The notes under the pieces are model-generated. The model did not search any database, was not told the DNA's origin, and saw nothing but the letters and a program-made list of their open reading frames with translations. Below are positions 9,470 through 29,169 of a DNA stretch of 41,759 nt, one piece after another (position 1 is the first letter of the stretch; each line of letters begins with the position of its first letter). Origin of the DNA: Cryptosporangium phraense (GTDB lineage: Bacteria > Actinomycetota > Actinomycetes > Mycobacteriales > Cryptosporangiaceae); NCBI RefSeq assembly GCF_006912135.1, contig NZ_VIRS01000051.1:1-41759 (forward strand), in the 5' to 3' direction. The translations under genes and the position numbers were made by a program.

Positions 9470-9930
9470 TCAGCGGGTGCGGCGCAGAATCTCGGTCGCT
9501 ACCTCGGGCAACAGCAATCCAACTTCGGCGGCACGTATCCTCAACGCTAGGTACGCCTCCTCAGTGCTACAGCGCTCACGGCCGACGATCATGCCGATGG
9601 CCTGCTGAATCTGATCTCGGACGGCGAGCGCCTCCGCCACGCCGGTGGCCAGATCGGCCACGCTCGTCGCGGGACCGCACAATGATGTCGAAGCCGGCGC
9701 GGACCCGGACGCTCGGAATGCCGCTCGTACCTCCTCGGCCAGGTCCACCAGCTCCGCCCGGTCGCGGCTGTAAAGGTTCATCGAGGCCACAGCGTCACCG
9801 CTACCGGCGAACAAGGGGATCGACAGGCTGGAGTGCAACCCGATCCGGTGAGCAGTCTCCCGGAAGCCGGGCCAACGCATCGTCGTCGCCACATCGCGAA
9901 CCTCCACCGGCGTTCCAGACTCGAGAGCCG
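9470..9930 (-). pseudogene. GAF-ANTAR regulator, N-terminal half lost at an IS junction
   Basis: The frame encodes the second half of a GAF domain (ALESGTPVEVRDVATTMRW, then GLHSSLSIPLFAG and ASMNLYSRDRAELVD) and a complete ANTAR domain (LAVRDQIQQAIGMIVGRERC, STEEAYLALRIRAAEVG). Upstream of about 9930 the same frame becomes transposase DNA read out of frame, so the GAF start is missing. The missing half is not found on the other side of the transposase, so this is a deletion or rearrangement rather than a clean insertion. A GTG within the remnant could still express an ANTAR-only protein, but this is doubtful. Confidence 0.8.
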
Positions 9931-12105: not shown

Positions 12106-13006
12106 GATCTCGAAGAGAGTGTAGCGAAGCTCATCAAGACGCTCTGTTCCGCAGATGCTGCGACTAAATTGCCCTTACTGATACTTCCGACCATGATTTC
12201 CCGTCGTGCTAGGAGGCGGCCCGCGTAGCGCCTCCGCGGGCAAGTGGCGTCGCATCTACCTCATATCGATTTTGGAGGACAGGGCTGTCACTCCCGTGTG
12301 GCCGCGAGCTAATGCCGCATTAGAAGTGATGGCACGCTGTACGGCCCTAAAGCAGACGACCCTTGTTGAGTCGATCGGAGCGAGTTTAGCCACGTATCCT
12401 CGTATCAGCGACGGACTTCGAAGTGGCCAGCCCGATCAGACGGAGAGCCTGCCGCGCTGAGGGGTGTTTGCGCCTCCGAGCTAACGATCGGCCAGTGCAA
12501 GGCGGCCGATCCGTGCCGGCACCGCAGGGCCGAGTTCATCCCGCGCTGCGCCTTTCATCCGATCCACTTCGCCGGATCAGCCGCCGCGGCGGATCGCCGA
12601 CTGACGTTGGCTGGCCACCGGTCCGCGTTGACCGACATTGCTGGTCCTGGTGCCCGGCTGCGCCGATGGGGCGCCGCGCTGGCCTTTGGCCAGGAGGGCG
12701 GCCCGGTCAGCAACTTCCCCAGCCCGCCTCGACCCCGTGTGTCTCGACCTCTACAGTCATCGCCTGTTCCTGTGGGGGCTCAGCCGATTGTGCCACCTCC
12801 AGGCCCTGACAAACGGCTTGAATTTCCAGTCGCGCGACCGGACGGCGAACTGCGACTTTACATCCGGAAAATCATCTGATACGGCCGTAGCGGAATCCGG
12901 GATCGGGCTATTGCCAACCGTCCGGCGGCTCTCTACCGTCACTTGCGGCCGTTACCTCGCCGCGATTGCTCTGTAACAAAGGTATGTAACTCGCCGGAGG
13001 GGACGT
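12106..13006. other. 900-base region without a convincing gene, upstream of the giant operon
   Basis: Several short frames exist on both strands but none has consistent codon bias or a recognisable motif. The best is 12297-12461 forward (ASLATYPRISDGLRSG), which looks more like a remnant. Composition is lower in GC up to about 12400. The last ~150 bases should contain the operon promoter, but no convincing -10/-35 pair was identified. Confidence 0.4.
12996..13002 (+). promoter_or_regulatory. Strong ribosome-binding site of the giant operon
   Basis: GGAGGGG lies four to six bases before GTG 13007 and decides that start over the overlapping GTG at 13005, which would run straight into a stop (GTGTGA). 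Confidence 0.75.
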
Positions 13007-16000
13007 GTGACCTCTGCACTGTTGGTCCCTATTCACCTTGATGCACTGCCGCTCAGCAGTGAATGCCCGACCATCGGTGCCGCGATCGACTATTCCCGGC
13101 TGCCCTACGTCGATGGCGCCGGTGACCAGAACGTCGCGTCCGCCTATCTGAGCGAGTCGATCGTCGACCCCCCGTTCCACGACGAGCCCGGCCTACTCAA
13201 GACCGGCGTTCACCTGCACTGGGCGTTACCCGACGCGCTCACGCAGGGAGTCCACACTCCGGACGGGACGGAGTTCCCGGCCGTGCCGACCCGTTGGCTG
13301 GTGACCCGCAGTCGGCTCGCGGCGGACGGAACGACCACACCCGAGCAGCGCTGGGTGGTGGAGAGCGACTATCTCGCACCCCTCGGCGTCACCGGATCCA
13401 GCGGCGTCGCCTTTCCTTTCACCGGCCTTATCGACGATTCGGCCGGCCCGCCGTTCCGCTACGTCGGCCGATCCATGACGCTGGCACAATGGCTCGATCC
13501 GGGCAAAGATGGTGGTCGGCCGCGGGATTATCTCGACCGCCTCACGTCGGCCGGATACGGCCATCCGTCCTTCGCCGCCATTTACCCGAACTGTCACAGC
13601 GTCTTCGGCTTTCATGATGCGGTCCAGGTCGATCCGAGCGGCGGATTGTTGTATGACGTCATCGGCTGGTACGGACGGTCGGCGGACGATTTTCTCGGCA
13701 CCTGGCTGCGCGCAGGCGCCGGCGATCCGCTCGACCGGCTCGCGGCCGATCTGGGCTGGGCGCCCCGGACGATCGTCACCCGCTCGGAACTCCGGATCAC
13801 CGGTGCCGACCCCGACGCGCTCTGGAGGGAGCTGCACGACCGTGGCTGGCTGACAGTCGTAGATGACCAGCGATCGCTGGTGATGACCGCGGCGTACCGG
13901 GCGCAGCGTCCGCTGAGCGACGCCTTTCAGGCGGTGGCCGAGCAGGCCGGTGCGGTGCTCGACCAGGCGGCCACGGTGACGCTCGGCTCGCCGGAGAAAA
14001 TGATGTGTTTTGGCCGGCTGCGGTTCGCGCCCCAGCCCGCCGCGGACGACACCCGGCTGACCCTGGCCGTCGGCAACACCGGGCTGGAGGCGGTGGCCGG
14101 GTATCTCGCGGCCGAGATCGCCCCGGACCGCGCACCTGAGGTCGAGCGGCTGCTGGGCGCGGTCCTGGAGCTGACCGGGGCCGGCACGCCGTCGCCGGAC
14201 GTCAACGCGCAACTGGCCGAGGCCCGGCACGAACGGACGTTCCGCCCGGTCGACGGCGGCACCCGCTGGACGATCAGCTCCCAGCAGAAGCCCGGCACCG
14301 CCCCGGACGCGGAGGCCTCCGACGATTTGCCCGACCTGCCGCCGGACGTCTCGGCGGCGCTGGGCGAGTTGAACCGCGTCCAGCAGGCCGGCGAGCGCAC
14401 GCGACAACAGCTGGCCGCGGCGCGCCGCGAGTTGTTCGCCGACTGGTACCGGTACCTGTTGTGCGCCTACCCGCCCTACGACGAGTTGCGCGACTACCCG
14501 GACGTCGACACGGTGAAGGCTTTTGTCGAGCGCGGGCTGACGCCGGTGAACGAAGCGGTCGTCGCGGCGGGGCGGCTCGACGAGCGCCGCAACGCGCTCG
14601 CCGCGCGGATCGAACGCGGTCTCCCCGACGGCGGGGCCTACAGTCTGCGCGAGGTCGGCGCACCCCGTTACTACGAGCCGACCGAGCCGGTGGTGCTGCT
14701 CGTCGGCGATCTCGTCCGCCCGTCGCCGCGCTACGGACAGGACCACACGTTCCGTCCGGACGCCGTCCTGGACACGCGCATCATCGACGTGGACCTGTCC
14801 GACCCGGTCGCGATGTGGACGGCGGCCGAGCCGGTCTGGGCCGAGCTGGCGCAGGCCGCTGACGCCGGGCGGGAGCAACTCGGGTTCAAGGTCTGGCGTC
14901 GCGCGCCTTGGCACCCGGTCCTGTTGGAGTGGGAGGTGAGCTACTCCCCCCGGGTGGATGATCGCGGCGTTCCCGGCACGTACGACCGCGACTTCCTCAC
15001 CGGCTCCTACCTGCTCGACGCGGGCGCCGGAGATCTGGCGCTGCGGGCAGGCCGGGGCGCGGTCGAGCCCGGCACCGAGTTCTACAGCGGGAGCAGCATC
15101 CTCACCCCGTCGGCGGTCGACCGGCTCCGATCGCTGCTCGTCCGCTATCTGGTGGGACTGGCCCTCGGCCGGGACAACAAGGCGTTCTTCGCGGCGGTGC
15201 CGGTCGCCGTTGCCGATCGGACGACCGAGTACCTGACCCAGAACGCCGGCCTGGTGATCGACTGGTACGCCACCGCACCCGCCGGTGACCCGGTCCGTAC
15301 GGTCGTCGAGGCCTACCGGCGCCTGGGCGACTCGTTTCCCGCGCTGGCCCAGGCGCTGAGCGGTTTCAATGCAGCCCTGCTGTCCCGGAAACAGACCACA
15401 CAGATGCCGATCGCCGACCCGTTCGGATTCGCGGACGACCAAGGTTTCATCGCGGCGGTCCGCGAGGCGGTCGGGCGCGGCAACGACACCGCGCCGATGC
15501 CGCTGGCCGACTTCAACCCGATCCGGGCGGGCGCGCTGGAGGTCAGCCGGCTCCGGCTGATCGACAGCTTCGGGCAGATCCGCGACCTGGCCTGGGACCG
15601 GCTGGTCATCGCGGACTCCCTGCGCGAGCCGGGCAACAGCCGGTGGGTCGGTCTACCACCCCGGATCGTGCAGCCGGCCCGGGTCAACCTGCGCTGGCTC
15701 GCCGCCGACGCGGCGCACACCGAGGCCGGGGCGCACGCGGCCACTACCCCGATCTGCGGCTGGATCCTCCCGAACCACCTCGACGACAGCCTGGCGGTTT
15801 ACGACCGAGACGGCGTCGCGCTGGGGGAGATCGACCAGTTCGCGGGGTGGAAACCGTCGCCGGGTGCCCTCGCCCCGGTCACGCTCGCGCAACTCCACGA
15901 CCCAGCGTTCACCGGGATAAACGCTCACCTGCGCCGGCTCGTCGCCCGCCTGACCCGCGCGCCGGGCGTCCCGGATTCCGGTGAGTCCGTGTTCCTGGCG

Positions 16001-17233
16001 TCTTTTCTGGAGACGATCGAGGCGACCCTCGACGCGATCGAGCCGGACGGCGCCGATGCCCAGCACGAGCTCGCATTTCTCTTCGGGCGGCCGATGGCCG
16101 TCGTCCGTGCGCTGGTCGACGTCGAACTGAAGGAGTCGCCCGCGGTCAATCAGAGCTGGCCGGCGTTCGGCCTGGATCTGCGCCGCGCCACCCGCGACAC
16201 CCGCGGTTTTCCCCAGGTCCGGTTTCCGATCCGGATCGGCGCACCGGAGCAGTTCGACGACGGCGTCGTCGGCTACTGGAAGGAGAGCGACGGCGGCCTC
16301 GCCGGGACGTTCTACGCGGCCGAACCGTCGGACCATCCGCGGATCGTGTCGCTGGACCGCGCCGAGGCCTGCGTCCAGCAGGCTGTGTCCGACCCGCCGC
16401 AGGAGCTCACGATGCTGCTCGACGCGCGGGGCAGCGTGCACGCGACCAGCGGCGTGCTGCCGACGAAGGTGATCACGGTCCCGGCGGAGCAGTTCACCGA
16501 CGCGCTGGCCGCGATGGAGGTGAGCTTCTTGACCGCACCACTGCTCACCGCGCGGGACCAACTGCGCGTCGCGCTGCCGACCGAGCCCGGCTATCGCTGG
16601 TCGTGGCTCGCTCCCGCCCCCGGACCGACCTGGATCGAGACGCACGCGGACGCCACGCTGAGCCGGTCCGTGTTCGAGGCGCACTTCCCGGCGGCCGACG
16701 CCCTCTGGGCGCACCTCCTCGACCCGGAGATCCGCTGGCTGGTACCGGTCGGGTTGAGCGCCACCGTGCTGTCGGCGCCTGAGCGCCGTAGCGCCGTGCT
16801 GCTCGGCGACTTCGCCGGGTTGGAGGCCTGGACCGACCGGGCGCTGGGCCTCAACGCGGCCACCGGCGCGGCGCCGGCGGCCCTCGTCACCGTTGCCGAT
16901 CTCGGTGCGCTGCCCACCGCGGAGGCGGTCTGGACCGCGCTCGTCGATCCGGCCACCGGCTGGCTGACCCCACTGGACGGTCAGCCGGACCGGGCCGCGA
17001 TCGTGCCGGTCGATCAGCGGCCCGGCGCGGAGACGGCCGATCAGCTCACCGGGCCGGTCCTGAGTGGAGCACTTGCCGGGCTGGAGGGCCGTCTTGGCCT
17101 GCTCTTCGATGACTGTCAGACCGGGATCGCGCCGATGCGCGCCGACGCCCACTCCACCGGACCACAGGAAGTACGGGAGGGCTGGCTGATGCTGCGGCCG
17201 GTGCGCCGATCGTCGGACGAATCGAGGACATGA
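13007..17233 (+). CDS. Giant protein of unknown family, first gene of five-gene operon
   Basis: 1408 residues from GTG 13007 behind a strong GGAGG site. No signal peptide and no membrane helix seen. Recognisable landmarks are GVHLHWALPDALT at 67-79, FPAVPTRWLV near 90-100, a charged coiled-coil-like helix at about 445-490 (ELNRVQQAGERTRQQLAAAR) and ICGWILPNHLDDSLAVYD near 917-935. The rest alternates short beta-like stretches with loops. I do not recognise a characterised domain or an enzyme motif. Codon use is strongly high-GC and uniform over the full length, so the frame is real despite long open frames on the other strand. The stop overlaps the next start as ATGA, so it is co-translated with the LamG protein. 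It may be a scaffold or structural subunit, but that is inference. Confidence 0.85.
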   Translation: MTSALLVPIHLDALPLSSECPTIGAAIDYSRLPYVDGAGDQNVASAYLSESIVDPPFHDEPGLLKTGVHLHWALPDALTQGVHTPDGTEFPAVPTRWLVTRSRLAADGTTTPEQRWVVESDYLAPLGVTGSSGVAFPFTGLIDDSAGPPFRYVGRSMTLAQWLDPGKDGGRPRDYLDRLTSAGYGHPSFAAIYPNCHSVFGFHDAVQVDPSGGLLYDVIGWYGRSADDFLGTWLRAGAGDPLDRLAADLGWAPRTIVTRSELRITGADPDALWRELHDRGWLTVVDDQRSLVMTAAYRAQRPLSDAFQAVAEQAGAVLDQAATVTLGSPEKMMCFGRLRFAPQPAADDTRLTLAVGNTGLEAVAGYLAAEIAPDRAPEVERLLGAVLELTGAGTPSPDVNAQLAEARHERTFRPVDGGTRWTISSQQKPGTAPDAEASDDLPDLPPDVSAALGELNRVQQAGERTRQQLAAARRELFADWYRYLLCAYPPYDELRDYPDVDTVKAFVERGLTPVNEAVVAAGRLDERRNALAARIERGLPDGGAYSLREVGAPRYYEPTEPVVLLVGDLVRPSPRYGQDHTFRPDAVLDTRIIDVDLSDPVAMWTAAEPVWAELAQAADAGREQLGFKVWRRAPWHPVLLEWEVSYSPRVDDRGVPGTYDRDFLTGSYLLDAGAGDLALRAGRGAVEPGTEFYSGSSILTPSAVDRLRSLLVRYLVGLALGRDNKAFFAAVPVAVADRTTEYLTQNAGLVIDWYATAPAGDPVRTVVEAYRRLGDSFPALAQALSGFNAALLSRKQTTQMPIADPFGFADDQGFIAAVREAVGRGNDTAPMPLADFNPIRAGALEVSRLRLIDSFGQIRDLAWDRLVIADSLREPGNSRWVGLPPRIVQPARVNLRWLAADAAHTEAGAHAATTPICGWILPNHLDDSLAVYDRDGVALGEIDQFAGWKPSPGALAPVTLAQLHDPAFTGINAHLRRLVARLTRAPGVPDSGESVFLASFLETIEATLDAIEPDGADAQHELAFLFGRPMAVVRALVDVELKESPAVNQSWPAFGLDLRRATRDTRGFPQVRFPIRIGAPEQFDDGVVGYWKESDGGLAGTFYAAEPSDHPRIVSLDRAEACVQQAVSDPPQELTMLLDARGSVHATSGVLPTKVITVPAEQFTDALAAMEVSFLTAPLLTARDQLRVALPTEPGYRWSWLAPAPGPTWIETHADATLSRSVFEAHFPAADALWAHLLDPEIRWLVPVGLSATVLSAPERRSAVLLGDFAGLEAWTDRALGLNAATGAAPAALVTVADLGALPTAEAVWTALVDPATGWLTPLDGQPDRAAIVPVDQRPGAETADQLTGPVLSGALAGLEGRLGLLFDDCQTGIAPMRADAHSTGPQEVREGWLMLRPVRRSSDESRT

Positions 17234-20200
17234 TGACCGCTCTGGACCGCGGACTGGCGCTCCACCTCGAACTCACCCGGGCCGAGAACGGGCTGCTGAC
17301 CGACAGCTCCGGAAACGGCAACGACGCGTCCCTGGAAGGAAAGGCCGCCCCGGCGGCCGATCCCACCCTCGGTGGCTGTGTCCTGGTCGGCGGCGACAAC
17401 GTGGTCGCGGTGCCGTCGCTCGGGCCGGCCGACGCGTTCACCGTCCAGATCTGGTTCAACGCGACCGCCGTCACCGGGCAGCTGACGCTCTATGGCGGCG
17501 GGTCGGACGCGCAGACGCCGCGTCTGATCGTGGACGGCGGGCGGCTCCAGGTGACCCTCCCCGACGCGGATCGGGCGCAATCGGCCTTCGACGTCGTGTT
17601 CGCCGCCGGCCGCTGGTACCACCTGACGGTCACCTACAGCCAGCGCGACCGGCAGCTGGCCCTGTCCGTCGACGGCGCCCCGCCGCAGGTCCGCACCCTG
17701 AACACGACGTCCGAGGTCGAGCTGGGGGCCTGCCGGATCGGCAACTCGACCGGTCAGCCGGCCGCCCTGTTCCGTCTCGGAAGCCTGCGGATCTACCGCC
17801 GGGTGCTGAGCGCCGGGGAAGCCCGGCAGAACATCCAGATCGACCTGGCGCGGCTCGTCCTGCACTTGCCGCTGGCCGAGCTGAAGGACGGTCTCAGCCC
17901 GGACGCCGCCGGATCAGCTCTGACCGCCCGCGCGACCGGCGCCCCGGACATCGTCCTCGACGAGTTGTTCGGCCAGTCGACGCGATTCGACGGCAGCGCC
18001 GAGTCGATGACCGTGCCGGACGACCCGTCCCTGCGGCTCACGACGTACACCGTCTCGGTCTGGTTGAAGCCGGACGGCCGGCCGGTGAACGCCTGGTCCG
18101 GAATAGTCGGCAAGCCGGGCCGGGATTACCACATCTGGCTGAACCGGGACGGCTACATCCACCACCGCTTCAGCGTCGCCGGCAACACCAATAGCGGCGC
18201 GCCGGACACCCCCGACGGCAGCATCACCTGGGACGCGTGGAACCACGTCGCGATCACCAACGACGGCCGGACCGCGACGACGTACGTCAACGGCGTCCTC
18301 GCGGCGACCGGACCCACCGGTGGCACCCCGGTCGCAAACCCCACCGCGCTGCTGCTGGCCACCGATCTCGACGGGCAGAACCAGCAGCGCTTCAGGGGCA
18401 GCCTGGCCAACGTCCGGGTCTACCGCGGTGCGTTGCCTGCCGACGTAGTAGCCGCCGAGATGGCCCAGGACCAGGCCGCGGTCGCGGCGGTGCGGGCAGG
18501 CCACCCGCTCGAGTTCGAGCTCCTCGACGCCGACGACGAACCGGTCCTTCCCATCGACGACGACCCGACCGGCCGGCAGCTGTTCCTCGAGGTAACCAAC
18601 AGCGCCGACACGACGGTGTCGCTCGCCGCGATCGCCGCTCCTTCCGCGAACGACCATCACCTCGCGCTCCGGTTCCGGGCCGGCACGCTGGCCGCGGCCT
18701 GCCTGGACACCGGCAAACCGGAGAAGCTAGTGCGGATCGCCGCGGACTCCTGGCGGATCAGCGCGCCCGTCGTCGACGACCAGAGCGTCGTCTTCTACCT
18801 CGCCAGCAGCAAGGCCCGCACCCTGGAGCCCGGCCGCACGTGGCACCTGACCGTGGAACACGCGATCGCCGACGCCGCCGCGGGCACCCGGGCCGTGCGG
18901 GTCAAGCTGCACTACCGCGGCCTGACGTATCTCGGCCAGACCACTCCGCTGGTCGGCAGCCGCACCAGCATGCTGACGATCGTCAACCAGCGGGGGCGCC
19001 CCAACATCCCGCTGCACGCCGGCTTCACCGGCGGGGACACGATCCTGAACGACAACGGCCGGTCGGAGTCGATGCTGACCCTGCACGTGGCCAACCTCGA
19101 CGTCGACGGGCCGATCCCGCTCACGCCGGCGAACGTCAGCTCGGCCCCGAGCCGACTGCGGATCACGTTCGACCACGAGCCCACGACCCGGGATTCGCTC
19201 GAACGTCCGTGGGCGCTGGGCACCGCGAGTGATCTCAAGGACGTCGACGTCCCGGCGAACGCCGCAGTCCGGGCCGACTGGCGGGTCGCGCGCACCTCGG
19301 TGGAGGGCGAATCGACCGAGCTGGTCCTGACCCCGATCAGCAAGACCAGCCTGGACCTGCGCGAGCTGGTCGCGATTCCGCTGGCCCGGATCCGGTCGTC
19401 GCTCCCGTCTGGGCCGGCGAACCTCTACCTGCGCTACGAGAACATCCCCGGCTACCAGGACGGCCAGTTCATCTGCACGGTCGTGAAGGGCCCGCTGGTG
19501 ACAACCGGCGCACGCGTCGGCGTCGGAATCAGTGATCCGGGCGCGGCGCTCCACGTCCGAGAGACGACCGGCACGGCGGCGGACGCCAACGCCGGCTCGC
19601 TGCTTATCGACCACGACGACGGCGGCGGAGCCAGCAGCATCGTCTTCCGCAGCGCGGTGAACCGGGGGAGCGACTACGGGTACATCCAGTACCAGGACAC
19701 CGCGGCCGTGGCCGGCACCGGGGAGAGCGCTCGCCTGATCATCGGCACCAGCAACGACCCGGACGACCACGTGGTGCTGCAACCGGCCGGGAACGTCGGC
19801 GTAGGCACCTCGGCCCCGAAGGGGAAGCTGCACGTCGCCGGGGACTACTACGGACGCGGCCATGTCTGGCTGCACGCCTACGAGGGCGACGGGGCCATCG
19901 GCACCGCGTACGTGCAGGCCCGCGACATGTCGGGGAGCACGTCCCTGGGCCTGCGGCTGCGCACCCAGAACGCGGGGGCGGTGACCGACTCGGTGCACCT
20001 GGCGCCGTCGGGCTCGGTGAGCGTCGGCAACACCGACCCGCGGTCGCAACTGACCGTCCACCGCACGACGAACCTCAGCACGGACGGCGCGCCGGTCGGC
20101 CTGATGACCCTGCTGTTCCACGGCCGGATCGACACCGGCCAGAGCAAGACCCACACGCTGTTCACGCTGGCTGACCACGCGAGCGCGCAGGTGGTGGTCA

Positions 20201-20457
20201 CGGTGCTGATGCACGACCTGAACTCGAATACGAACCGGCTGCTTTTCAAGGCCGAGTACGTGGTGTACCGGGAGTGGACCAACGCGCCGAAGATCGACCA
20301 GCTCGCGCAGGTCTACCGCAAGGCCTACGGACAGACCGTGTACGCCGCGGATCTGATCGCCGGTGGCAACGACGTCCAGGTCCGGGTCTCGCAGTCCGGG
20401 TTCGCCACCAACACCGTCTACAAGGTCCTCGGGCAGTACCTGCTCGGACCATCCTGA
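17230..20457 (+). CDS. Double LamG-like protein with phage tail-fibre-like repeats
   Basis: 1075 residues. Two concanavalin-A/LamG-like jellyroll domains occupy about 5-200 (FTVQIWFNATAV, RWYHLTVTYS, FRLGSLRIYRRVLS) and 205-410 (YTVSVWLKPDGRP, WDAWNHVAITNDGR, FRGSLANVRVYRGALP). A beta-rich linker runs to ~745. Three copies of the tail-fibre-type motif follow near 757, 855 and 930 (VGVGISDPGAALHV, NVGVGTSAPKGKLHVAGD, SVSVGNTDPRSQLTVH). The last ~125 residues form a further globular domain without a visible autoprocessing chaperone motif. LamG domains commonly bind glycans, so a receptor-binding or adhesive fibre is the likely role. No signal peptide is seen, which is unusual for a surface adhesin and fits a cytoplasmically assembled particle. 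Start ATG 17230 overlaps the previous stop. Confidence 0.88.
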   Translation: MMTALDRGLALHLELTRAENGLLTDSSGNGNDASLEGKAAPAADPTLGGCVLVGGDNVVAVPSLGPADAFTVQIWFNATAVTGQLTLYGGGSDAQTPRLIVDGGRLQVTLPDADRAQSAFDVVFAAGRWYHLTVTYSQRDRQLALSVDGAPPQVRTLNTTSEVELGACRIGNSTGQPAALFRLGSLRIYRRVLSAGEARQNIQIDLARLVLHLPLAELKDGLSPDAAGSALTARATGAPDIVLDELFGQSTRFDGSAESMTVPDDPSLRLTTYTVSVWLKPDGRPVNAWSGIVGKPGRDYHIWLNRDGYIHHRFSVAGNTNSGAPDTPDGSITWDAWNHVAITNDGRTATTYVNGVLAATGPTGGTPVANPTALLLATDLDGQNQQRFRGSLANVRVYRGALPADVVAAEMAQDQAAVAAVRAGHPLEFELLDADDEPVLPIDDDPTGRQLFLEVTNSADTTVSLAAIAAPSANDHHLALRFRAGTLAAACLDTGKPEKLVRIAADSWRISAPVVDDQSVVFYLASSKARTLEPGRTWHLTVEHAIADAAAGTRAVRVKLHYRGLTYLGQTTPLVGSRTSMLTIVNQRGRPNIPLHAGFTGGDTILNDNGRSESMLTLHVANLDVDGPIPLTPANVSSAPSRLRITFDHEPTTRDSLERPWALGTASDLKDVDVPANAAVRADWRVARTSVEGESTELVLTPISKTSLDLRELVAIPLARIRSSLPSGPANLYLRYENIPGYQDGQFICTVVKGPLVTTGARVGVGISDPGAALHVRETTGTAADANAGSLLIDHDDGGGASSIVFRSAVNRGSDYGYIQYQDTAAVAGTGESARLIIGTSNDPDDHVVLQPAGNVGVGTSAPKGKLHVAGDYYGRGHVWLHAYEGDGAIGTAYVQARDMSGSTSLGLRLRTQNAGAVTDSVHLAPSGSVSVGNTDPRSQLTVHRTTNLSTDGAPVGLMTLLFHGRIDTGQSKTHTLFTLADHASAQVVVTVLMHDLNSNTNRLLFKAEYVVYREWTNAPKIDQLAQVYRKAYGQTVYAADLIAGGNDVQVRVSQSGFATNTVYKVLGQYLLGPS

Positions 20458-20478
20458 TTTGGCGTCGGGAGCGCAGAG

Positions 20479-22389
20479 ATGGCTTGGAGCCTGGAAATTC
20501 GTCACATCGCGATCGCTGGCACCGGCGACTCGACCGTGATCGTGGCGCGGGACGACGGTGTCGGGGCCGGTCACGTGGCCCAGACGCGAACCTGCCTGAT
20601 CGACGGCGGCAAGGGCCCGGCCAAGGGCCAGATCGACGGCGTGCTGAGGGGCCTCCCTCGGGGCGGTGGCGGCGGCAACATCACTCAGCTCGACGTCATG
20701 GTGCTGACCCACTACGACGCCGACCACATGACCGGCCTCCGGGACCTGCTGTCGAAGACCGCCAACGCTCCGTTTTACGGCACAACGCTGATCTACGACC
20801 AGGGCGAGCCGTCCGCGCTGGGATTCGACGAGAACACCTATCTCGGCTGGGTGAACGCGATCCGGGGCCGGCCCGGCTGCACCCGCGTCACGCGCAACGT
20901 CGCCGCCGACCAGGCGCGGGTGAACAAGGGTCGCTACGGCCTGCCCCTGCAGCCGTCGAACATCCAGGTCCGAACCGTCCCGGCGATGTGGCCGTTGGTG
21001 GGGGTCGCGGGGATCCCGAACAACCCGCTGCTCGGTGCGTTACCGGCCCCGCTGGCCGTCCCGGCCGGCCCGCTCGTGGCCGCGAACCAGTGGTGGCACG
21101 CGTACTGGCTGGTAGGGCGCGAGATCCTATGGACGGACGCGGCCGGCGACCCGATCGCCCCCGCCGGTGCCCTCGCCGCCGCCGCGCTGGCGCCGACCAT
21201 TACCTGCGTCGCCGCGAACCGGTACGTGCGCAACGACGCGGTCGGCGGCCCGGCCCGGGCGACCTACCTGCCGGCCACGCTGCTGGCGCAGGGCGATCAG
21301 GTCAAGAACGAGAAGAGCCTGGCCTTCGAAGTCCGGTTCGGGAACTTCCGCTACTACATCGGCGGCGACATCGAGTCGCCGCAGGAAAACACGATCCCGG
21401 TCTACCTCAACCCGAATGACTCGGTGGCCGGGCGCGTGCACGTCACCAAGACCAGCCACCACGGCGCGGAGACGGCGACCTCCCGCGCGTTCGTCGACCG
21501 GATGCGTCCGCTGGTCGCGGTCAGCTCCTGCGGTGCGCGCAATCAGTTCCGGCATCCGCGTCCTGAGACCGTCTGGTCGCTGGACGGCGTGGCCGTGGCC
21601 GCACTGCCCCCAGCGACGCCGCCCAAGCCCGGCCGGGGGACGACTGCGGCGCAGAAGCTGGCCTGGACCCTCGCTCCGCCGCCGGCACTTCCGGCCGCTC
21701 GGGCCCGCCGGTCGGTCGCGCACTACCTGACCGGGTTCCAGGACCCGGCGACGTCCACCTCCATGGCTACCGGCACCATCGGTGGCCTCAACTCCGGCGA
21801 TCCGTTGAACATTCTGCTGCCACACGACGTCACGATCCGAGTCACCGCCGACCAATCGGTCAGCAACCCCCTGGGGAGCCTGGGCGTCGGGCTGGTCGAG
21901 ACGATCCGGGGTACGGCCACCCCGCTGGGACTCGGGGCCCCGGCCCCGGCCCTGCTCGACGGCGCCGTGCTAGCCCTGGACACGGCCCCCGACCGGGCCG
22001 CCGCGGCGGACGCGGTCGTCAGATTCCTGCTGACCCAGCTGGGATACGCGGGCGCGATTGCGGTCACCGTCGCAGCGGTGACCGCGGGCGGCCCGCTGGG
22101 CACGCTCGTCCAGCTGGTGCGTCAGGCGGCCACCAACGCCGGCGTGCCCCACGCGCCGGCCTCGGTCGTGGCCGCGGCGGGCAAGTATGTCGTCGAGGCG
22201 CACGGCATGGCCCTCGTGACCGACCGGGCGTTGGCGGCAGACCGGGCGGTGGTGGACGCCGCCGCGGTACTTCCGTTCGGGGTGCAACCGCTGGTGAACC
22301 AAGCGGTCCACGCCACCGGACTGTTCTCGGTCACGTACCACGAAATGCTCCCCGCGCCGGGTGGGCCCCGAACCAACATCTACCGCTGA
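20479..22389 (+). CDS. ComEC-like metallo-beta-lactamase-fold protein with extra C-terminal domain
   Basis: 636 residues. An MBL fold occupies about 1-370: substrate-side strand TCLIDGGKGPAKG, the metal motif THYDADHMTGL (H78, D80, D82, H83), metal-bridging D297 in YYIGGDIES, and TSHHGAE (H327, H328) followed by a conserved VAVSSCGARNQFRHP segment. This layout resembles the hydrolase part of ComEC/Rec2 but without its membrane channel, so it is a soluble metal-dependent hydrolase, possibly a nuclease or phosphodiesterase. Between the metal sites there is a ~100-residue insertion (about 150-260). Residues ~400-636 form a separate Ala/Val-rich region with no recognised domain. ATG 20479 has a GGGAG site nearby and lies 21 bases after the LamG gene. 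No signal peptide. Confidence 0.85.
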   Translation: MAWSLEIRHIAIAGTGDSTVIVARDDGVGAGHVAQTRTCLIDGGKGPAKGQIDGVLRGLPRGGGGGNITQLDVMVLTHYDADHMTGLRDLLSKTANAPFYGTTLIYDQGEPSALGFDENTYLGWVNAIRGRPGCTRVTRNVAADQARVNKGRYGLPLQPSNIQVRTVPAMWPLVGVAGIPNNPLLGALPAPLAVPAGPLVAANQWWHAYWLVGREILWTDAAGDPIAPAGALAAAALAPTITCVAANRYVRNDAVGGPARATYLPATLLAQGDQVKNEKSLAFEVRFGNFRYYIGGDIESPQENTIPVYLNPNDSVAGRVHVTKTSHHGAETATSRAFVDRMRPLVAVSSCGARNQFRHPRPETVWSLDGVAVAALPPATPPKPGRGTTAAQKLAWTLAPPPALPAARARRSVAHYLTGFQDPATSTSMATGTIGGLNSGDPLNILLPHDVTIRVTADQSVSNPLGSLGVGLVETIRGTATPLGLGAPAPALLDGAVLALDTAPDRAAAADAVVRFLLTQLGYAGAIAVTVAAVTAGGPLGTLVQLVRQAATNAGVPHAPASVVAAAGKYVVEAHGMALVTDRALAADRAVVDAAAVLPFGVQPLVNQAVHATGLFSVTYHEMLPAPGGPRTNIYR

Positions 22390-22402
22390 CGGGGGACACC
22401 CG

Positions 22403-25400
22403 ATGGACCTCGACAGCCGTTCACTCGCCGACGTCGCGACCCAGCTCAAAGCCCAGCTGAACGGCAGCGGCGACCTCCCGCTCACGGCCGGCGTGCTCGG
22501 CACCGGCGGCCCGCTCAACCAGTTCCTCCCGACCGTCCCCGGCGGGCAGATCGTGCTGCGGCAACCGCGGTTCGACGTCGCTGCGACGAGCTGGCCCCAG
22601 ACGCTGACCGTGACCGGCCCGGTCACCGCCGTCTGGCCGGTCAGCGCGCTCGCCCCGGACGCGCTCACCGTGCAGACGAGCACCGTGACGATCACCCGGG
22701 ACCACGTCGGTGCCGCCGCGACCGTGGCGTTCTCGGTCGACGGCACGGTGCAGGTGGACACGCTCCGGCTGAGCGTCACCGGCGTACTGGGCGCGGACGC
22801 ATTACTGCGCTGCTCACTCGGCACCGGGACCCACGCCCTCCCCGGTCTGCCCGAGCTGGTCAATCTGGTGAGCAACGGGGCGCTCCCGATCACGCTCCCG
22901 TCCGGGCTGCCGTTCCTCCAGAGCCTGAAGCTGCGCGAGCTGGACCTGCTAGTCGGATTCGGCACTGCCACGCAGACGTCGCTGCTCGTCGGACTGGACG
23001 CGAGCCTGGACTGGCCGATCGTCGACCCGGATTTTGTGTTGAAGTCCATCAGAGCGACGCTGACGGCGGCGCACCGGGCGGCTACCAGCACCCTCTCCGT
23101 CGGCGCCGAGCTCGATGCTTCAGTCGTCATCGGCCGCCAGTTCGACCTGTCGCTGCAACTCGGTGGCCCGGTCTGGACACTGGACCTCAAGCCGGCCAGC
23201 GGCGTCCTGCCGAGCCTCGCCGACCTCGCCGGGCTGATTGGTGGGGCATCGCTGCAGAGCTCCGTGCAATCAGGGACGACCGCGGTCGGCCTGGGCGAGA
23301 TCGGGATCGACGATGTCCGGATCAGCTTCGACCCGTTCGGCGGGACGCTCCAGCGGATCCTGATTGCCGGCCACGTCGTGCTGGCCGATGTCCGCGTCGA
23401 CCTGGTCACCGCGCTGCCCGACTTCGCGCTCGCCGGTGGCCTGGCGTTCGGCGAGACCATTCACCTCAAGGCGCTGTTCGAGCACTTCTTCGGCACCGCG
23501 TCCGGGTTCCCCGACGTCGTGGTGACCGAGTTCGCGTTCCACGGACAACCGTCGACCGGCAGCTACGGGCTCGAGATCGTCGCGGACGACGATGACCTGG
23601 CGATCGGCCCGATCGGCCTGCGCAGCGTCAGCATCGTGGTCGAGAAGAGCTCGGCCGGGGTGACCGGAGCCGTCGCCGCCGACGTCGTGATCGGCGGCGT
23701 GGATCTGGTGATCGAGGCCTCGCACCCGGAGGAGGACGGACCCTGGGTATTCGCCGGCGCGACCAGCTCCGAGCAGACGATCGCGATCAAGGACATGCAC
23801 GCGGCGCTGTCCGCGCAGTTCGGTGCCTTCGCGCTGCCGACGGTCATCGAGGACCTGGTGATCACCGCCGTACGCGTCGGCTTCGACACCGCGGGCAACG
23901 TCTCCGTCGAACTCGGCACGCGGTTCCCGCTCAACGCGACGACCTCCGTCGACCTGACCGTCTCGGTCGACGTCGTGCTGCGGGACAACAGCCCGTCCGA
24001 CGTTGTGCTGAGCGCGAAGATGATGGTCGGTGATCTGCACTTCGAGATCGACTTCGCCCGGACGCAGACCGGCCTGAGCCTGCTCGCCGCCTATGCGGCC
24101 AAGCCGGGCGCCACGGCGCGGAAGGTCAGCGATCTGCTCGCGCCGGTGCTCAACGCCAAGCCCGGGTTGGCCGCGCTCGTCCCCGACAGCCTCCGGATCG
24201 AGCTCAAGGACGTCCTGCTCTACGTCCAACGGCCAGCCGGCACCGGTCCGACGCGGTTCCTGTTCGGCCTCGATCTGGGGGCGTCGATCGACCTCGCCCA
24301 GTTGCCGCTGGTCGGGAAGGAGTTGCCGGCCGCGCAGAGCGCCTCGGTGGAGGACTTGCAGATCCTCGTCGCCTCACAGGCGTTCGGGGTCACGGACGTG
24401 GGCACCGTGAACAGCTTGATGCCCGCCGGTGTGACCCGCCTGCCCGCTGCCGACCTGCCGCAGGGCGTGACGTTCGGCGCGAAACTGGTGCTCGGTGGCG
24501 TCCCGGCCCCGCTCACCCTGCCCGCGACGCCGAGCGGGACGCCCGCGCCCACCGGCCAGACCGTCGGGGGCCAGCCGGTCGTCCAGGCCGACTCGACCAA
24601 GTGGATCACGCTGCAGAAGACCTTCGGGCCGCTGCAACTCAACCGGGTCGGCTTCCAATACGCCCAGCAGAAGATCTGGTTCCTGCTGGACGCCGGGATC
24701 TCGCTGGGCGGGCTCACCTTCTCGCTCGACGGCCTGGCCGTCGGTTCGTCGATCGTCGGGTTCTCCCCGGAGTTCGACCTGCGCGGCCTGGGCCTGGCCT
24801 TCACGAGCGGGCCGTTGGCGCTCAGCGGCGCGCTGCTGCGGGAACGCCTCGTCGGCGATGACGGTCAGCCCTACGACGAGTACGAGGGTGCGGCGCAGCT
24901 CACGGTGCGTGAGCTGACGATCCGCGCGATCGGCTCATACGCGTACGCCGGCGGCTACCCTTCGCTGTTCGTCTACGCGGTGCTCGACTACCCGCTCGGG
25001 GGCCCGTCGTTCTTCTTCGTGACCGGGCTCGCGGCCGGGTTCGGGTACAACCGGCGGCTCCGGATTCCGGCGATCGACGGGGTAGCCCAGTTTCCCCTCG
25101 TCAGCGAGGCGGTCAACCCGCCGACCGGGCCGCCGGCGCCCCCGCTGGACGAGTTGAAGAAGCTCCGGTCCACGATCGTGCCCGCCGCCGGTGAGGATTT
25201 TCTCGCCGTCGGGATCCGGTTCACCTCGTTCCGCCAGATCGACTCGTTCGCCCTGCTCACGGTCCTGTTCGGGGCGCGTTTCGAGGTCGACGTACTCGGC
25301 CTGTCGACGATGAAGCTACCGACCGCGCCCGGCGCCACCCCGCTGGCCGAGGTGCAGATGGCGGTCAAGGCGAGCGTCATCCCCGACGAAGGCTTCCTGG

Positions 25401-26686
25401 GCGTCCAGGCGCAGCTCACCTCGGCGTCCTATCTGTTCTCCCGGGACTGCCATCTGACCGGCGGGTTCGCGTTCTTCAGCTGGTTCAGCGGGCCGCACGG
25501 CGGCGACTTCGTGGTGACGGTCGGTGGCTACCGGTCCGGGTACAACCCGCCCGCCCACTATCCGCGCGTTCCGCGGGTCGGATTCAACTGGCAGGTCACC
25601 TCGCAGCTCATGGTGAAGGGCGAGGTCTACTTCGCGCTGCTGCCCACCGCCCTGATGGCGGGCGGACAGCTGCAGGCCACCTGGAACAGCGGCAACCTCA
25701 GCGCCTGGTTCACGGCCGGATTCGACGTCCTCGTCGCCTGGCAGCCCTACCACTACGAGGCGAACTTCCACATCGGAATCGGAGTCCGGTACACCTATCA
25801 CTTCTTCGGAACCCACACCCTCTCGGTCGACGTCGGCGCGAATCTCTCGATCTGGGGGCCGGACTTCTCCGGCCGCGCCAAGGTGAAGCTCTCGATCGTC
25901 AGCTTCGAGATCAGCTTCGGCGCCGGGGTCTCCGCGACCCCGGGGCCGCTCGGGTGGGCCCAGTTTCAGAAGGCTTTCCTGCCCGACGACACCGACCGGG
26001 CCCCGATCTGCAGTCTGACCGTCCGCACCGGCCTGACCCGCTCCGGTGACGGGACCATCGACTGGGTCCTCGATCCCAAGTCGTTCACGCTGGTGTCGGA
26101 CTCGGCGGTGCCGGCCAAGCACTACGATGTCGCCGCCGGTGCGGTCGGTGCGGCCACGCTCAACACGGCGTTCGGGGTGGCGCCGATGGACCTCGCGGCC
26201 GGGAAGGTCGATTCGGCCCACGTCGTACGCATCACCCGTGACAACGTCGACGTGACCCGGCTGTTCACCTTCTCGCCGATCCGCAAGAAGGTCCCGGCGG
26301 CGATGTGGGGTCAGTCGGTCCGGGCCCGCACGGACGGCGACGCGTTGATCGCCGACACGCTGGCTGGTTTCGCGATCGCTCCGCTGGCCCCGGTGATACC
26401 GGCGGCCGAGACACCCGAAATCCTCCTCGTGGCCGACGCGCAGTACGGCCTGAGCCAGGTCACCGGCGCGTTCGGCTGGACGGCCGGGCGCACGTTCGCG
26501 GCCGCGAACAGGCAGGGCGACGCCGCCGTGGCCGCCGCGCTCGGTTCCACGGCCGCCCGCGCCGCGCTCCTGGCCGAGCTCGGATTAGGGACCGACGGCC
26601 TCACGTCCGGGCCGGGCACTGCCACCGCATTTCCACTCCCTCCGCAGGTGGGCGACCTCCTCGGACACCTGGAGGCCACCGGATGA
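22403..26686 (+). CDS. Giant DUF6603-type beta-rich protein
   Basis: 1427 residues from ATG 22403 (GGGGGA upstream). The first ~720 residues alternate hydrophobic beta strands with loops in repeated blocks (for example LILAGHVVLADVRVDL-like LIAGHVVLADVRVDLV near 320 and VGDLHFEIDFA near 540). From about 730 to 1210 the sequence matches what I know of DUF6603: QLNRVGFQYAQQKIWFLLD, FDLRGLGLAFTSGPLALSG, YPSLFVYAVLDYPLGGPSFF, FFVTGLAAGFGYNRRLRIP. The tail (1250-1427) is Ala/Pro-rich. DUF6603 has no established function that I know of. The regular amphipathic strands could make a long beta groove or barrel-like body, but this is inference. No signal peptide. The gene starts 13 bases after the MBL gene and overlaps the next by ATGA. 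Confidence 0.85.
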   Translation: MDLDSRSLADVATQLKAQLNGSGDLPLTAGVLGTGGPLNQFLPTVPGGQIVLRQPRFDVAATSWPQTLTVTGPVTAVWPVSALAPDALTVQTSTVTITRDHVGAAATVAFSVDGTVQVDTLRLSVTGVLGADALLRCSLGTGTHALPGLPELVNLVSNGALPITLPSGLPFLQSLKLRELDLLVGFGTATQTSLLVGLDASLDWPIVDPDFVLKSIRATLTAAHRAATSTLSVGAELDASVVIGRQFDLSLQLGGPVWTLDLKPASGVLPSLADLAGLIGGASLQSSVQSGTTAVGLGEIGIDDVRISFDPFGGTLQRILIAGHVVLADVRVDLVTALPDFALAGGLAFGETIHLKALFEHFFGTASGFPDVVVTEFAFHGQPSTGSYGLEIVADDDDLAIGPIGLRSVSIVVEKSSAGVTGAVAADVVIGGVDLVIEASHPEEDGPWVFAGATSSEQTIAIKDMHAALSAQFGAFALPTVIEDLVITAVRVGFDTAGNVSVELGTRFPLNATTSVDLTVSVDVVLRDNSPSDVVLSAKMMVGDLHFEIDFARTQTGLSLLAAYAAKPGATARKVSDLLAPVLNAKPGLAALVPDSLRIELKDVLLYVQRPAGTGPTRFLFGLDLGASIDLAQLPLVGKELPAAQSASVEDLQILVASQAFGVTDVGTVNSLMPAGVTRLPAADLPQGVTFGAKLVLGGVPAPLTLPATPSGTPAPTGQTVGGQPVVQADSTKWITLQKTFGPLQLNRVGFQYAQQKIWFLLDAGISLGGLTFSLDGLAVGSSIVGFSPEFDLRGLGLAFTSGPLALSGALLRERLVGDDGQPYDEYEGAAQLTVRELTIRAIGSYAYAGGYPSLFVYAVLDYPLGGPSFFFVTGLAAGFGYNRRLRIPAIDGVAQFPLVSEAVNPPTGPPAPPLDELKKLRSTIVPAAGEDFLAVGIRFTSFRQIDSFALLTVLFGARFEVDVLGLSTMKLPTAPGATPLAEVQMAVKASVIPDEGFLGVQAQLTSASYLFSRDCHLTGGFAFFSWFSGPHGGDFVVTVGGYRSGYNPPAHYPRVPRVGFNWQVTSQLMVKGEVYFALLPTALMAGGQLQATWNSGNLSAWFTAGFDVLVAWQPYHYEANFHIGIGVRYTYHFFGTHTLSVDVGANLSIWGPDFSGRAKVKLSIVSFEISFGAGVSATPGPLGWAQFQKAFLPDDTDRAPICSLTVRTGLTRSGDGTIDWVLDPKSFTLVSDSAVPAKHYDVAAGAVGAATLNTAFGVAPMDLAAGKVDSAHVVRITRDNVDVTRLFTFSPIRKKVPAAMWGQSVRARTDGDALIADTLAGFAIAPLAPVIPAAETPEILLVADAQYGLSQVTGAFGWTAGRTFAAANRQGDAAVAAALGSTAARAALLAELGLGTDGLTSGPGTATAFPLPPQVGDLLGHLEATG

Positions 26687-28551
26687 GGGAACTCCGCTTT
26701 CTCTCCGCCCACCGCCCAGACCCCGAGCTGGCCGACGGCGTGTATACCGTGACCGTCTCGCAGAGCCTCGTCCTGTCCGGGCAGCGGGTTTCGCTGCGGC
26801 CGGTGACCAAGCGCTTCGCGATCGCTGGGGAGCACCGGACGCTTACGCCGGCCGACGTCGTCGCGGTCTATCCACCGGAGGGCAGCCTCGGTGACCACGC
26901 CACGACGCTTCCGCACATCGTGCTGCGCCGCAGCACGCTTCCCTGGGAGCGGGCCGGCGGACAGGACGACTCCGGCCTGCCTTGGCTGGCCGTACTACTT
27001 CTCGACGAGGAGGACACGGCCGAGTCGACGGTAAAGTCGCTGACCGAGCTCAAAGGGCTGGCCGAGTTCGCTCACCTCACCCCGGTGCCGGGACAGTCCG
27101 ACGAGGACCGTTACACCGTGCTGGGCGTCGCTCCCGACCGGCTGACCGAACTGCTCCCGACGGCCGCGGAGCTGGCCCTGCTGGCCCACGTCCGCCAGCA
27201 GGGGGAAACCGGGAGACCCGCCGACGAGGACCTCGCGGTGGTGGTCGGCAACCGGCTTCCCCGCGGCGGTCGGGCCAGTACCGCGCACCTCGTTTCGGTC
27301 TTCGGCCGCTACCGGGGCGGTGCGTTCGACACCACGGTGACGACGGGCGGGCTGGTCCACGTCGTTTCGCTGAAGAGCTGGCGCTTCGCGTCAATCCCGG
27401 CCGGAGCGAGCTTCGAGACCCTGGTCACCGCGCTGAACCGGACGCCGGCCACGGTGAGCCTGCCGGCCGTCGGGAAACCCACCGCCGACCCCTACCTCGT
27501 CCGTGGGTTCGTGGCCCTGCCGCACCGGCTTCGGCAAGCAGACCGGGCCGTGTCCTGGTATCACGGTCCGCTCGGGCCGCAGCGCACCGCCGCGACCGGC
27601 GACGGAATGCTTCCGGTCCGGACCGCCGACGCGCTGCTCCGCATCGACGGCGCTACCGGAATGCTCGACGTCTCGTACGCTGCGGCCTGGCAGGTCGGGC
27701 GTCTGCTGGCGCTGCAGAGCCGGCGCTTCTCCACTGCGTACGGCGTCTGGCGGCGCGCCCACCGGCGGGCAAGCCGGCTCGTCGATCCTCTCCGGGAGAC
27801 GCCGGTCCCGGTGCAGACCGCGATGGACACCAGCGCTCCCGACGTGCCCACTGTGGTGCGGGACTGGCTGACCGATCTCGGTTCGCTGGTCGACGTCCCG
27901 TTCAACTACCTGGTTCCCGACGACCGGATGCTGCCGGCCGAGTCCTTCCGGGCATTCACGCTGGACGGGCTGTGGACGCAGTGCCTTCTCGACGGCGCCC
28001 TCAGCCTCGGGCGGATCACCCAGGGCGACGAGGACTACGAGTCGGCCCACCTGGCCTTTCTGCGCACCCCCCGGTACCCGGTGATCAGCGGTTGCCTGCT
28101 TCGCTCAGCGCTGATCCCGGGATGGCCGCGGATGCGAATCGACGCCTACGACGCGGTCCCACCGGCCGATGGTGATCTCACCGGGCTCACGCCACTGACA
28201 TCCGTACGCACGGCGCGTCTCAGCGACACCGTGCAGTTGTGGCTGTTCGCCGGGGACGTCAGCACATTCCACATCCACCTGCCGCCGGAGATCCTGCATC
28301 TCGGGGTTGACCGCGACGCGACCGTCCCGACCGGCTACACGAAGCTCCTCCGCGACGCTGGCGGCACCCACAAGGCCGGCCGTAGCGTCCCGGTCCGCTG
28401 GCGGGCGGGCTCGACTCGCCAGGTCATCGACGTTGGCGCCCTGGCCGCCGGGATCGGGTCGTCGCTGAGCGCGGCGGGGTTCGCGAAACAGATGATGGAA
28501 GGAGCCCCCCGTGTCCTGCTCCGCCGCGCGTTGTCCTTCCCGGGTAGTTAG
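26683..28551 (+). CDS. Protein of unknown family, last gene of five-gene operon
   Basis: 622 residues from ATG 26683, overlapping the DUF6603 stop by four bases. The first ~65 residues look like beta strands (YTVTVSQSLVLSGQRVSLRP). A conspicuous motif TLPHIVLRRSTLPWER lies at about 75-90, with GLPWLAVLLLDEED shortly after, which suggests a conserved domain of unknown function. The middle (~350-480) is helical and Arg-rich (VWRRAHRRASRLVDPL). The C-terminus ends in an amphipathic helix. No signal peptide, membrane helix or catalytic motif seen. The ATG is chosen because of the coupling overlap and because translation upstream of it reads the previous gene out of frame. Co-expression with the four preceding genes is strongly implied. 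Confidence 0.83.
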   Translation: MRELRFLSAHRPDPELADGVYTVTVSQSLVLSGQRVSLRPVTKRFAIAGEHRTLTPADVVAVYPPEGSLGDHATTLPHIVLRRSTLPWERAGGQDDSGLPWLAVLLLDEEDTAESTVKSLTELKGLAEFAHLTPVPGQSDEDRYTVLGVAPDRLTELLPTAAELALLAHVRQQGETGRPADEDLAVVVGNRLPRGGRASTAHLVSVFGRYRGGAFDTTVTTGGLVHVVSLKSWRFASIPAGASFETLVTALNRTPATVSLPAVGKPTADPYLVRGFVALPHRLRQADRAVSWYHGPLGPQRTAATGDGMLPVRTADALLRIDGATGMLDVSYAAAWQVGRLLALQSRRFSTAYGVWRRAHRRASRLVDPLRETPVPVQTAMDTSAPDVPTVVRDWLTDLGSLVDVPFNYLVPDDRMLPAESFRAFTLDGLWTQCLLDGALSLGRITQGDEDYESAHLAFLRTPRYPVISGCLLRSALIPGWPRMRIDAYDAVPPADGDLTGLTPLTSVRTARLSDTVQLWLFAGDVSTFHIHLPPEILHLGVDRDATVPTGYTKLLRDAGGTHKAGRSVPVRWRAGSTRQVIDVGALAAGIGSSLSAAGFAKQMMEGAPRVLLRRALSFPGS

Positions 28552-28583
28552 TGACGGGCCGTCTGCAGGTGCTGCGCCGCCCT

Positions 28584-28937
28584 CTACTGGGCTGCGTGGT
28601 ACTTCTCCGCGATCTCGGTGGGGATGCGTCCCCGCTCGTTGACCTGAAGGCCACGGACCTTGGCCCACTCCCGGATCGCCTGGTTCTGCAAGCGATCCGC
28701 AACCGTCTTCGGCGCACTCCTGCTCGAGTTCCTGCGGGAGGATTTGGCGGCGGCAGTAGTGCGGGCGGTACGCCGAGCGGCGGCGACGTACTTCGCCAGT
28801 CCGTTACGCAGCAGGCCGGCGTTGGCGCTCGAAAGATCAATCTCGTACACCGTGCCGTCGACAGCGAATGCGACGGTCTCCTCCGCGTCACCGCCGTCCA
28901 GATCGTCAACGAGACGGACTTCAACTCTGCGTGCCAT
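28584..28937 (-). CDS. lsr2: Lsr2 nucleoid-associated xenogeneic silencer
   Basis: 117 residues. The N-terminal dimerisation domain (MARRVEVRLVDDLDGG, VAFAVDGTVYEIDLS, 1-55) and C-terminal DNA-binding domain (REWAKVRGLQVNERGRIP, 89-106) with the RGR minor-groove motif at 102-104 are both present, joined by a Lys/Arg/Ser-rich linker. Lsr2 bridges and silences AT-rich, often horizontally acquired DNA in actinobacteria. ATG 28937 has GGAGG seven to eight bases upstream. The gene is convergent with the giant operon (32 bases between stops) and divergent from the NACHT gene. It may be an additional, locally acting copy, because genomes of this group often carry more than one. Confidence 0.93.
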   Translation of the reverse strand: MARRVEVRLVDDLDGGDAEETVAFAVDGTVYEIDLSSANAGLLRNGLAKYVAAARRTARTTAAAKSSRRNSSRSAPKTVADRLQNQAIREWAKVRGLQVNERGRIPTEIAEKYHAAQ

Positions 28938-29169
28938 CAGACGACCTCCACGCGGTATAGCGAGACACGGACTCAGCATCCGAGATGCCGGCTTGTGGCG
29001 AACAGTATCGCGCGGGCATCGCTTCGGCAGTACGGAGCTAGCAGGTGAGCTTTCAGTCAGTTATGGGCGAGGTCCGGTTCATGGTCCAGATCGGCCTCCC
29101 TCGTGACTGATGCGGGCCTGTTGCCGATTGGACGCCGCGCGCGACAGTGGATGCCGAGGGGGAGGTGTC

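Follow-up and report, generated by a model that had tools for sequence, protein, structure and literature searches.

Parts of several described systems resemble a five-gene locus of Cryptosporangium phraense that we analyse here (positions 13007-28551 of contig NZ_VIRS01000051.1; the window is the whole 41,759-nucleotide stretch examined). Extracellular contractile injection systems and tailocins follow a fibre-plus-enzyme logic similar to that of the assembly proposed below. The mosaic adhesive trimeric (MAT) fibre proteins of Bdellovibrio act outside the cell, according to their description (PMC10769870), and a nuclease activity has been described for the beta-lactamase-like domain of ComEC (PMC12455585).

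The products of the five genes, P1 to P5, share features with these systems and differ from them. P2 has beta-helix repeats in common with the MAT fibres, as well as the idea of a single shaft with swapped tips (PMC10769870), but it starts with LamG, shows no leader and sits with DUF6603, P5 and P1. P3 shares with ComEC a match to structures of the metallo-beta-lactamase (MBL) domain and the metal motifs, and a nuclease activity is predicted for it, but it has no flagged membrane channel, scores below the cut-off of the ComEC_Rec2 model and carries a large extra C-terminal part. With Avs1a of AVAST type 1, LmuA and the reverse transcriptase-associated MBL (RTasMBL), P3 shares N-terminal MBL similarity; however, it falls far below the Avs1a cut-off, and no Avs model matches the NACHT protein encoded nearby. 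In contrast to contractile injection systems and tailocins, sheath, tube and baseplate families were not found in the cluster genes scanned. P4 is a member of PF20248 (DUF6603), a family that carries no named function, but its linked partners P5 and P1 have no matching model in any of the four libraries searched.

Judged by sequence comparison, the five genes were not brought together by chance and represent one form of a polymorphic gene module. The comparison of loci shows a fixed core, DUF6603 and P5 (plus P1 in the loci that we call type A), between two variable positions, of which the one before DUF6603 often holds a putative hydrolase and the one after P1 often a putative binder. The features of the locus are:

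13007..17233, + strand: P1, 1408 residues, type A core gene, with a variable insertion close to the C-terminus
17230..20457, + strand: P2, 1075 residues, LamG-type regions, middle domain and trimeric-fibre (MAT-like) repeats
20479..22389, + strand: P3, 636 residues, predicted MBL-fold hydrolase occupying the exchangeable enzyme position
22403..26686, + strand: P4, 1427 residues, DUF6603 at residues 751-1231 (numbering of a 1441-residue reading frame)
26683..28551, + strand: P5, 622 residues, next after DUF6603 in 30 of 30 loci
12993..13006 (approximate, judged by eye), + strand: Shine-Dalgarno-like GGAGG region preceding the GTG start of P1

Gene order and co-occurrence

We mapped 31 loci (28, then three more) gathered by protein, profile and family searches: P5 searches gave loci L005-L007, P1 searches one Embleya locus and that of Paenibacillus sonchi, and DUF6603 searches all the others. 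Excluded from the synteny counts were L003 (genome G028, a short contig with pieces of P5 and DUF6603), L042 (a second DUF6603 piece, in G349), Natrinema (H8) and two of the three Streptomyces clavuligerus records. Because the loci were picked by these searches they are not a random set, and the genome samples by phylum given below are the fairer test.

In every locus with DUF6603 the P5-family gene comes next on the same strand, with an exception in spacing only in the broken copy of Marinomonas rhodophyticola, where a DUF6603 fragment lies between the two. These loci span Actinomycetota, Pseudomonadota, Bacillota and one haloarchaeon; the 31st locus, on a plasmid of P. sonchi, has P5-P1 without DUF6603. 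Among the 22 loci with P1 (type A), this gene follows P5 directly in 21, the spacing being within 60 bases in 19 of 20 and a four-base overlap in seven of 20. Type B loci (n=9) have DUF6603, a longer P5-like protein (B2) and, in eight, a large protein B3, with B4 next in six; the ninth meets a contig end. B2 matches the P5 profile only (97.8%, E 8e-13), and no match to the P1, P5 or DUF6603 profiles was obtained for B3, B4 and two accessory families. In three genomes of the same genus a single-protein search did not find P5, and DUF6603 is present in only one of them (G003), which has two type B clusters (L096 and L097) about 100 kb apart; both read DUF6603-B2-B3-B4 and both were absent from the profile-building set.

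An earlier note on this DNA, made from the sequence alone, had taken the five genes for one strictly co-produced system and expected the same families in the same order elsewhere. This expectation is borne out for DUF6603-P5-P1, for the MBL gene in seven of the 22 type A loci and for a P2-like protein after P1 in three further loci. As an obligate set, the five genes do not hold together: MBL and fibre can be absent or give way to other proteins, and the genes are arranged differently from those of the other 21 type A loci. The broader proposal, a single linked system that combines a binding fibre with an enzyme, stands for the most part, as this pair fits the exchangeable positions; the idea that it forms a particle finds no support.

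In the genome samples, which include the centre genomes, DUF6603 occurs in 9 of 296 Actinomycetota and 9 of 398 Pseudomonadota. The genome of the window (8.46 Mb) and its phylum sample are taken as Actinomycetota from the 16S gene, whose nearest relatives in the plasmid collection are ten Actinomycetota records (88-92% identity), followed by Bacillus at 82%. P1 is found in exactly the same nine Pseudomonadota (Fisher p ~1.6e-18, kinship ignored); since eight of these nine P1 genes are themselves rows of the P1 profile (A2), the informative part is its absence from the other 389 genomes and its presence in G540. With the same reservation, P1 occurs in 4 of 296 Actinomycetota, all with DUF6603 (p ~4e-7). 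P5 was found in 5 of 296 Actinomycetota, all among the nine with DUF6603, a count that misses four of the five type B genomes because the profile used (A1) was built from type A. These profile searches scored at most three (A1) or two (A2) candidates per genome among the matches shown. Across 72,556 plasmid records P1 and P5 each match the same eight, and DUF6603 matches ten, seven of them common to the P1/P5 set. Searches of 50,697 phage records by tblastn gave no match for P1, P2, P4 and P5, the four proteins used, and two single-protein DUF6603 scans of viral contigs, a method that detects close relatives only, found nothing.

Proteins of the core and of the variable positions

The DUF6603 assignment of P4 is firm: PF20248 scores 482.1 bits against a cut-off of 27, over model positions 1-481 of 502. 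Searches of Pfam, PHROGs, NCBIfam and PADLOC at E up to 0.1 assign P1 and P5 to no family. DUF6603 proteins are very large (673-3286 residues, excluding one shortened by a contig end), and P4 shows strong beta-type alternation of hydrophobicity with respect to shuffled sequence (z 6.4; 3.1-5.6 in four relatives). P5 is made of two conserved parts, each of which has its own gene in several loci. When profiles of the P1, P5 and DUF6603 alignments were compared with solved structures, nothing useful emerged, one match being to vimentin at E 0.46, and neither DUF6603 nor PF20248 is named in any paper of the literature searched, a body to which most subscription papers and all bioRxiv preprints do not belong. 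In M. rhodophyticola (L007, 450-17938) the DUF6603, P5 and P1 genes are in many pieces, while they are open in the Marinomonas shanghaiensis copy (L006); the fragmented copy reflects either ongoing loss or sequencing errors.

P2 comprises two LamG-type regions (residues ~1-410; PF13385, 140 bits), a middle domain (405-760) and MAT-like repeats (~760-910). These repeats, of the beta-helix kind G-x-G-T-x-A-P-x-x-x-L-H-V, give several matches to solved Bdellovibrio MAT fibre structures (Bd2133, 8OND, E 5.6e-7; marginally Bd3182, 8OJN, E 0.012), and P2 is a candidate trimer. Both the LamG module and the tail-fibre-like character suggested earlier are therefore sustained; the PHROGs matches of P2 are to tail fibre and virion proteins, its beta-type alternation is above that of shuffled sequence (z 3.5) and its N-terminus is not hydrophobic, which by hydropathy means no secretion leader. 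The middle domain is common to the proteins that follow P1 in G611 and in Embleya 896a. Combined in one profile (post-P1 group C), these score 40.9 against the P2 middle, compared with a maximum of 25.0 in 200 shuffles, with an hhalign probability of only 58%; taken singly, the Embleya 896a protein does not match P2 significantly by BLAST. The post-P1 protein of G540, a close relative of G611 (P1 97% identical), matches P2 in a single-subject BLAST over 36 residues (E 3.7e-6). Since the P2 middle is found in G611, G540 and Embleya 896a, all five families occur together in these three further loci. Post-P1 group A (Embleya, Streptomyces) matches group B (Marinomonas, G299; hhalign 94.7%, E 5.7e-8), and neither of them matches P2; only group C does.

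The MBL fold noted earlier in P3 scores just below the Pfam cut-off (21.2 bits against 22.7), yet MBL structures of ComEC match it and are its nearest solved relatives (9ic4, E 4.6e-9), and the metal motifs of the family, H-x-[DH]-x-D-H, GD and HHG, are each kept in six of the six rows that cover them. P3 is a ComEC-like MBL and likely a nuclease. It scores 44.8 bits against the ComEC_Rec2 model (cut-off 190), and a crude hydropathy test marks no membrane segment in it; no leader was seen by hydropathy on five MBLs of the clusters. In PADLOC its N-terminal part matches LmuA (E 7e-11), RTasMBL (E 1e-8) and, weakly, Avs1a, whose NCBIfam model gives 25.6 bits against a cut-off of 420. P3 also matches a PHROGs tail protein model (62.7 bits), and its hydrophobicity shows no beta-type alternation above shuffled sequence.

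The position before DUF6603 carries different families in different loci. The seven type A loci with an MBL gene there are the one in the window, G018, S. clavuligerus, both loci of Embleya NBC_00896 (in one of them a 343-residue reading frame separates MBL from DUF6603), G611 and G540. In type B, Peptidase_M64 occupies the position in two of nine, G164 (77.9 bits) and the second cluster of G003 (30.3 bits; cut-off 26), the G164 protein carrying an HELGH motif and no leader by hydropathy. A PhoD-like protein does so in two more, at 27.4 bits in the first cluster of G003 (cut-off 27) and below the cut-off, at 24.3, in G109. The preceding gene is WD40 in G248 and has no Pfam hit in G260, the haloarchaeon and G341; in Paraburkholderia the gene directly upstream also lacks a Pfam hit, and a trypsin-like gene precedes it. 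In six loci the giant DUF6603 genes (3233-3286 residues) are instead preceded by a conserved gene of about 200 residues (L062 1165-1812 and kin), with no Pfam family in the one copy scanned.

After P1 there are LamG and fibre repeats in the window, Fib_succ_major and F5/8C in the two Embleya NBC_00896 loci, PLAT in S. clavuligerus (second gene) and kelch then PQQ in a Magnetospirillum metagenome-assembled genome (MAG); the remaining post-P1 proteins scanned have no significant Pfam family. PLAT, F5/8C, Fib_succ_major, kelch, LamG and MAT repeats are modules mainly of extracellular binders. In one Embleya locus (L052, 15833-21904) P1 and the next protein, which has F5/8C, share a domain (39% over 111 residues, E 7e-18), as if it had spread within the cluster. 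A 504-residue protein and then a PLD-like protein follow P1 in Paenibacillus polymyxa (L020, 21991-25118); the former resembles a PD-(D/E)XK nuclease by eye and has no Pfam hit.

A proposed modular assembly and its alternatives

The explanation that we favour, while putting it somewhat below an even chance, is a leaderless modular assembly in which a large core is combined with a hydrolase and a recognition protein, both exchangeable, and which would act outside the producer or at its surface. The beta-rich DUF6603 protein, P5 and P1 would together make up a large scaffold that is produced in the cytosol and has no Sec leader; the fibre- or lectin-like protein would direct it to a target, glycan or surface, on which the hydrolase, here the ComEC-like MBL, would act. 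The site of action would most likely be the surroundings or the surface of the producer, reached by lysis or some other route, and the purpose would be competition with other organisms or the use of their material. We infer the assembly itself, the recognition, the substrate of the enzyme and the export route, and its role as antagonism, surface work or defence.

More generally, and more tentatively, the loci may represent a leaderless and polymorphic machine of a new class, which recognises and hydrolyses its targets and is present in bacteria and archaea, with a DUF6603-P5 core, swappable hydrolases (MBL nuclease, M64 peptidase, PhoD-like phosphatase) and swappable target-binding fibres; it would then have two subtypes, the core being accompanied by P1 or by the B3-B4 proteins. 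We rate the system as categorically new in its make-up, since DUF6603 is in no paper searched and the P1 and P5 profiles have no solved relatives. A domain of unknown function and a number of giant hypothetical proteins can now be treated as a defined, testable system of several genes, whose core is conserved and whose other parts can be swapped; it occurs in distant phyla and even in a haloarchaeon. Systems aimed at changing targets are expected to vary at both ends while the core between them stays fixed. The cluster is small enough for cloning and, if the role is antagonism or defence, would encode a new antagonistic or defensive device.

A number of observations weigh against this assembly. 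The locus under study is alone among type A in having P1 first, as a P1-P2 block before MBL-DUF6603-P5. An MBL gene is missing from 15 of the 22 type A loci, no enzyme family is recognised in four of the nine type B loci (the WD40 and the three with no Pfam hit), and after P1 there is no relative of the binder groups in G018, two Paenibacillus loci and G381. Two post-P1 genes have Sec-like leaders, one of 669 residues in the Magnetospirillum MAG (second after P1) and one of 877 residues in G441. For the scaffold, P1 and P5 show no excess of alternation over shuffled sequence, and structure models of the DUF6603 region and of P5, from alignments of four and seven rows taken from the window and related loci, reached mean pLDDT (predicted local distance difference test) values of only 35.9 and 42.8; after these failed predictions the beta-scaffold idea leans on sequence patterns. 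Leaderless proteins are equally compatible with staying inside the cell. That leaders were not seen is the main difficulty for a role outside it, just as the extracellular character of the binder modules is the main difficulty for a role inside.

Such an inside role is the substance of an intracellular anti-phage conflict system, in which the core would sense infection and the exchangeable hydrolase (MBL, peptidase or phosphatase) would be the effector. The resemblance of the N-terminal part of P3 to LmuA, RTasMBL and weakly Avs1a speaks for it, together with the sparse, partly plasmid-borne distribution, the lack of visible leaders on most proteins, conflict-type neighbours (NNH7-NACHT in the window, CHAT or CATRA near two plasmid loci, an NB-ARC regulator near G018) and the swapping of effectors, which is typical of such systems. 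However, LamG, PLAT, F5/8C and MAT fibre are unusual for anti-phage systems, no NTPase, nucleotide-signalling or helicase family was met among the recurring cluster genes scanned, and the remaining neighbours are of common kinds (polyketide synthase, DNA polymerase, TatC), so we consider it unlikely. Less likely still is a structural or surface coat of the producer (envelope, spore or matrix) bearing a decorating lectin and a trimming enzyme. The great size of DUF6603 proteins, their beta-type alternation and the binding modules would suit a coat, but a housekeeping coat would be more conserved than the sparse occurrence, the carriage on plasmids and the patchiness within the genus allow.

The particle of the earlier note, as a degenerate or unusual phage-derived structure, contractile or tail-like, might claim the fibre-like repeats of P2, the PHROGs matches of P2 and P3, the baseplate-V and DUF4280 genes ~9-13 kb upstream in P. 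polymyxa, and a sheath gene elsewhere in four of 14 system-bearing genomes, including this one, where it is on another contig. It is very improbable: besides the lack of sheath, tube and baseplate families in the scanned cluster genes and the phage-record result for P1, P2, P4 and P5, the PF04984 sheath gene is missing from 10 of the 14 genomes, which makes a contractile particle unlikely. Tc-toxin-like and Rhs-like readings were rejected, as no such family matched the scanned proteins. As for unrelated genes lying together by chance, to which the optional MBL and fibre genes might point, the finding that the genes occur together and keep their order across three bacterial phyla and one haloarchaeon refutes it for DUF6603, P5 and P1 and leave it a negligible probability.

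Reading frames and neighbouring genes

The five co-directional reading frames at 13007-28551 are real. Recomputation from their coordinates confirmed the lengths of 1408, 1075, 636, 1427 and 622 residues and the junctions originally described, with ATGA overlaps at 17230 and 26683 and 21 and 13 bases at the other two. For gene 4 the listed reading frame of 1441 residues begins at an upstream GTG, and the ATG at 22403 gives 1427. The GTG start at 13007, with GGAGG upstream, agrees with the conserved N-terminus of the P1 family. Given that the region has ~70% GC and long antisense reading frames are present too, length by itself is no proof of a gene. Homologues back P1, P3, P4, P5 and the P2 middle as genuine; a codon-usage test selects all five, a support that is valid only for P2 and P3, since the training set included P1, P4 and P5. 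Consistent with the earlier description, none of the five proteins was flagged by crude hydropathy for a leader or membrane segment, while eight of 103 labelled genes, none of them among these five, contain a hydrophobic stretch, which in most is internal. A scan of 12400-29200, which is a weak test in a genome of this kind, revealed neither a consensus promoter nor a terminator-like site on the + strand. The 165-residue reading frame at 28551-29048 is probably not a gene: it is not selected by codon usage and has no convincing family in Pfam, PHROGs, NCBIfam or PADLOC.

Just downstream, at 29170-32352 on the + strand, is a gene for a large NACHT protein, bacterial NLR (nucleotide-binding, leucine-rich repeat)-like, with an NNH7 N-terminal domain (226 bits). 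Genes for TatC, ferritin-like, Nramp, fasciclin and molybdopterin oxidoreductase proteins are clustered at 34877-41455. On the other side, at 9801-10937 on the - strand, lies a transposase gene (DDE_3, 65.5 bits), whose product is related to the IS630 transposase of the P. sonchi plasmid and to one near the Streptomyces NBC_01276 cluster.

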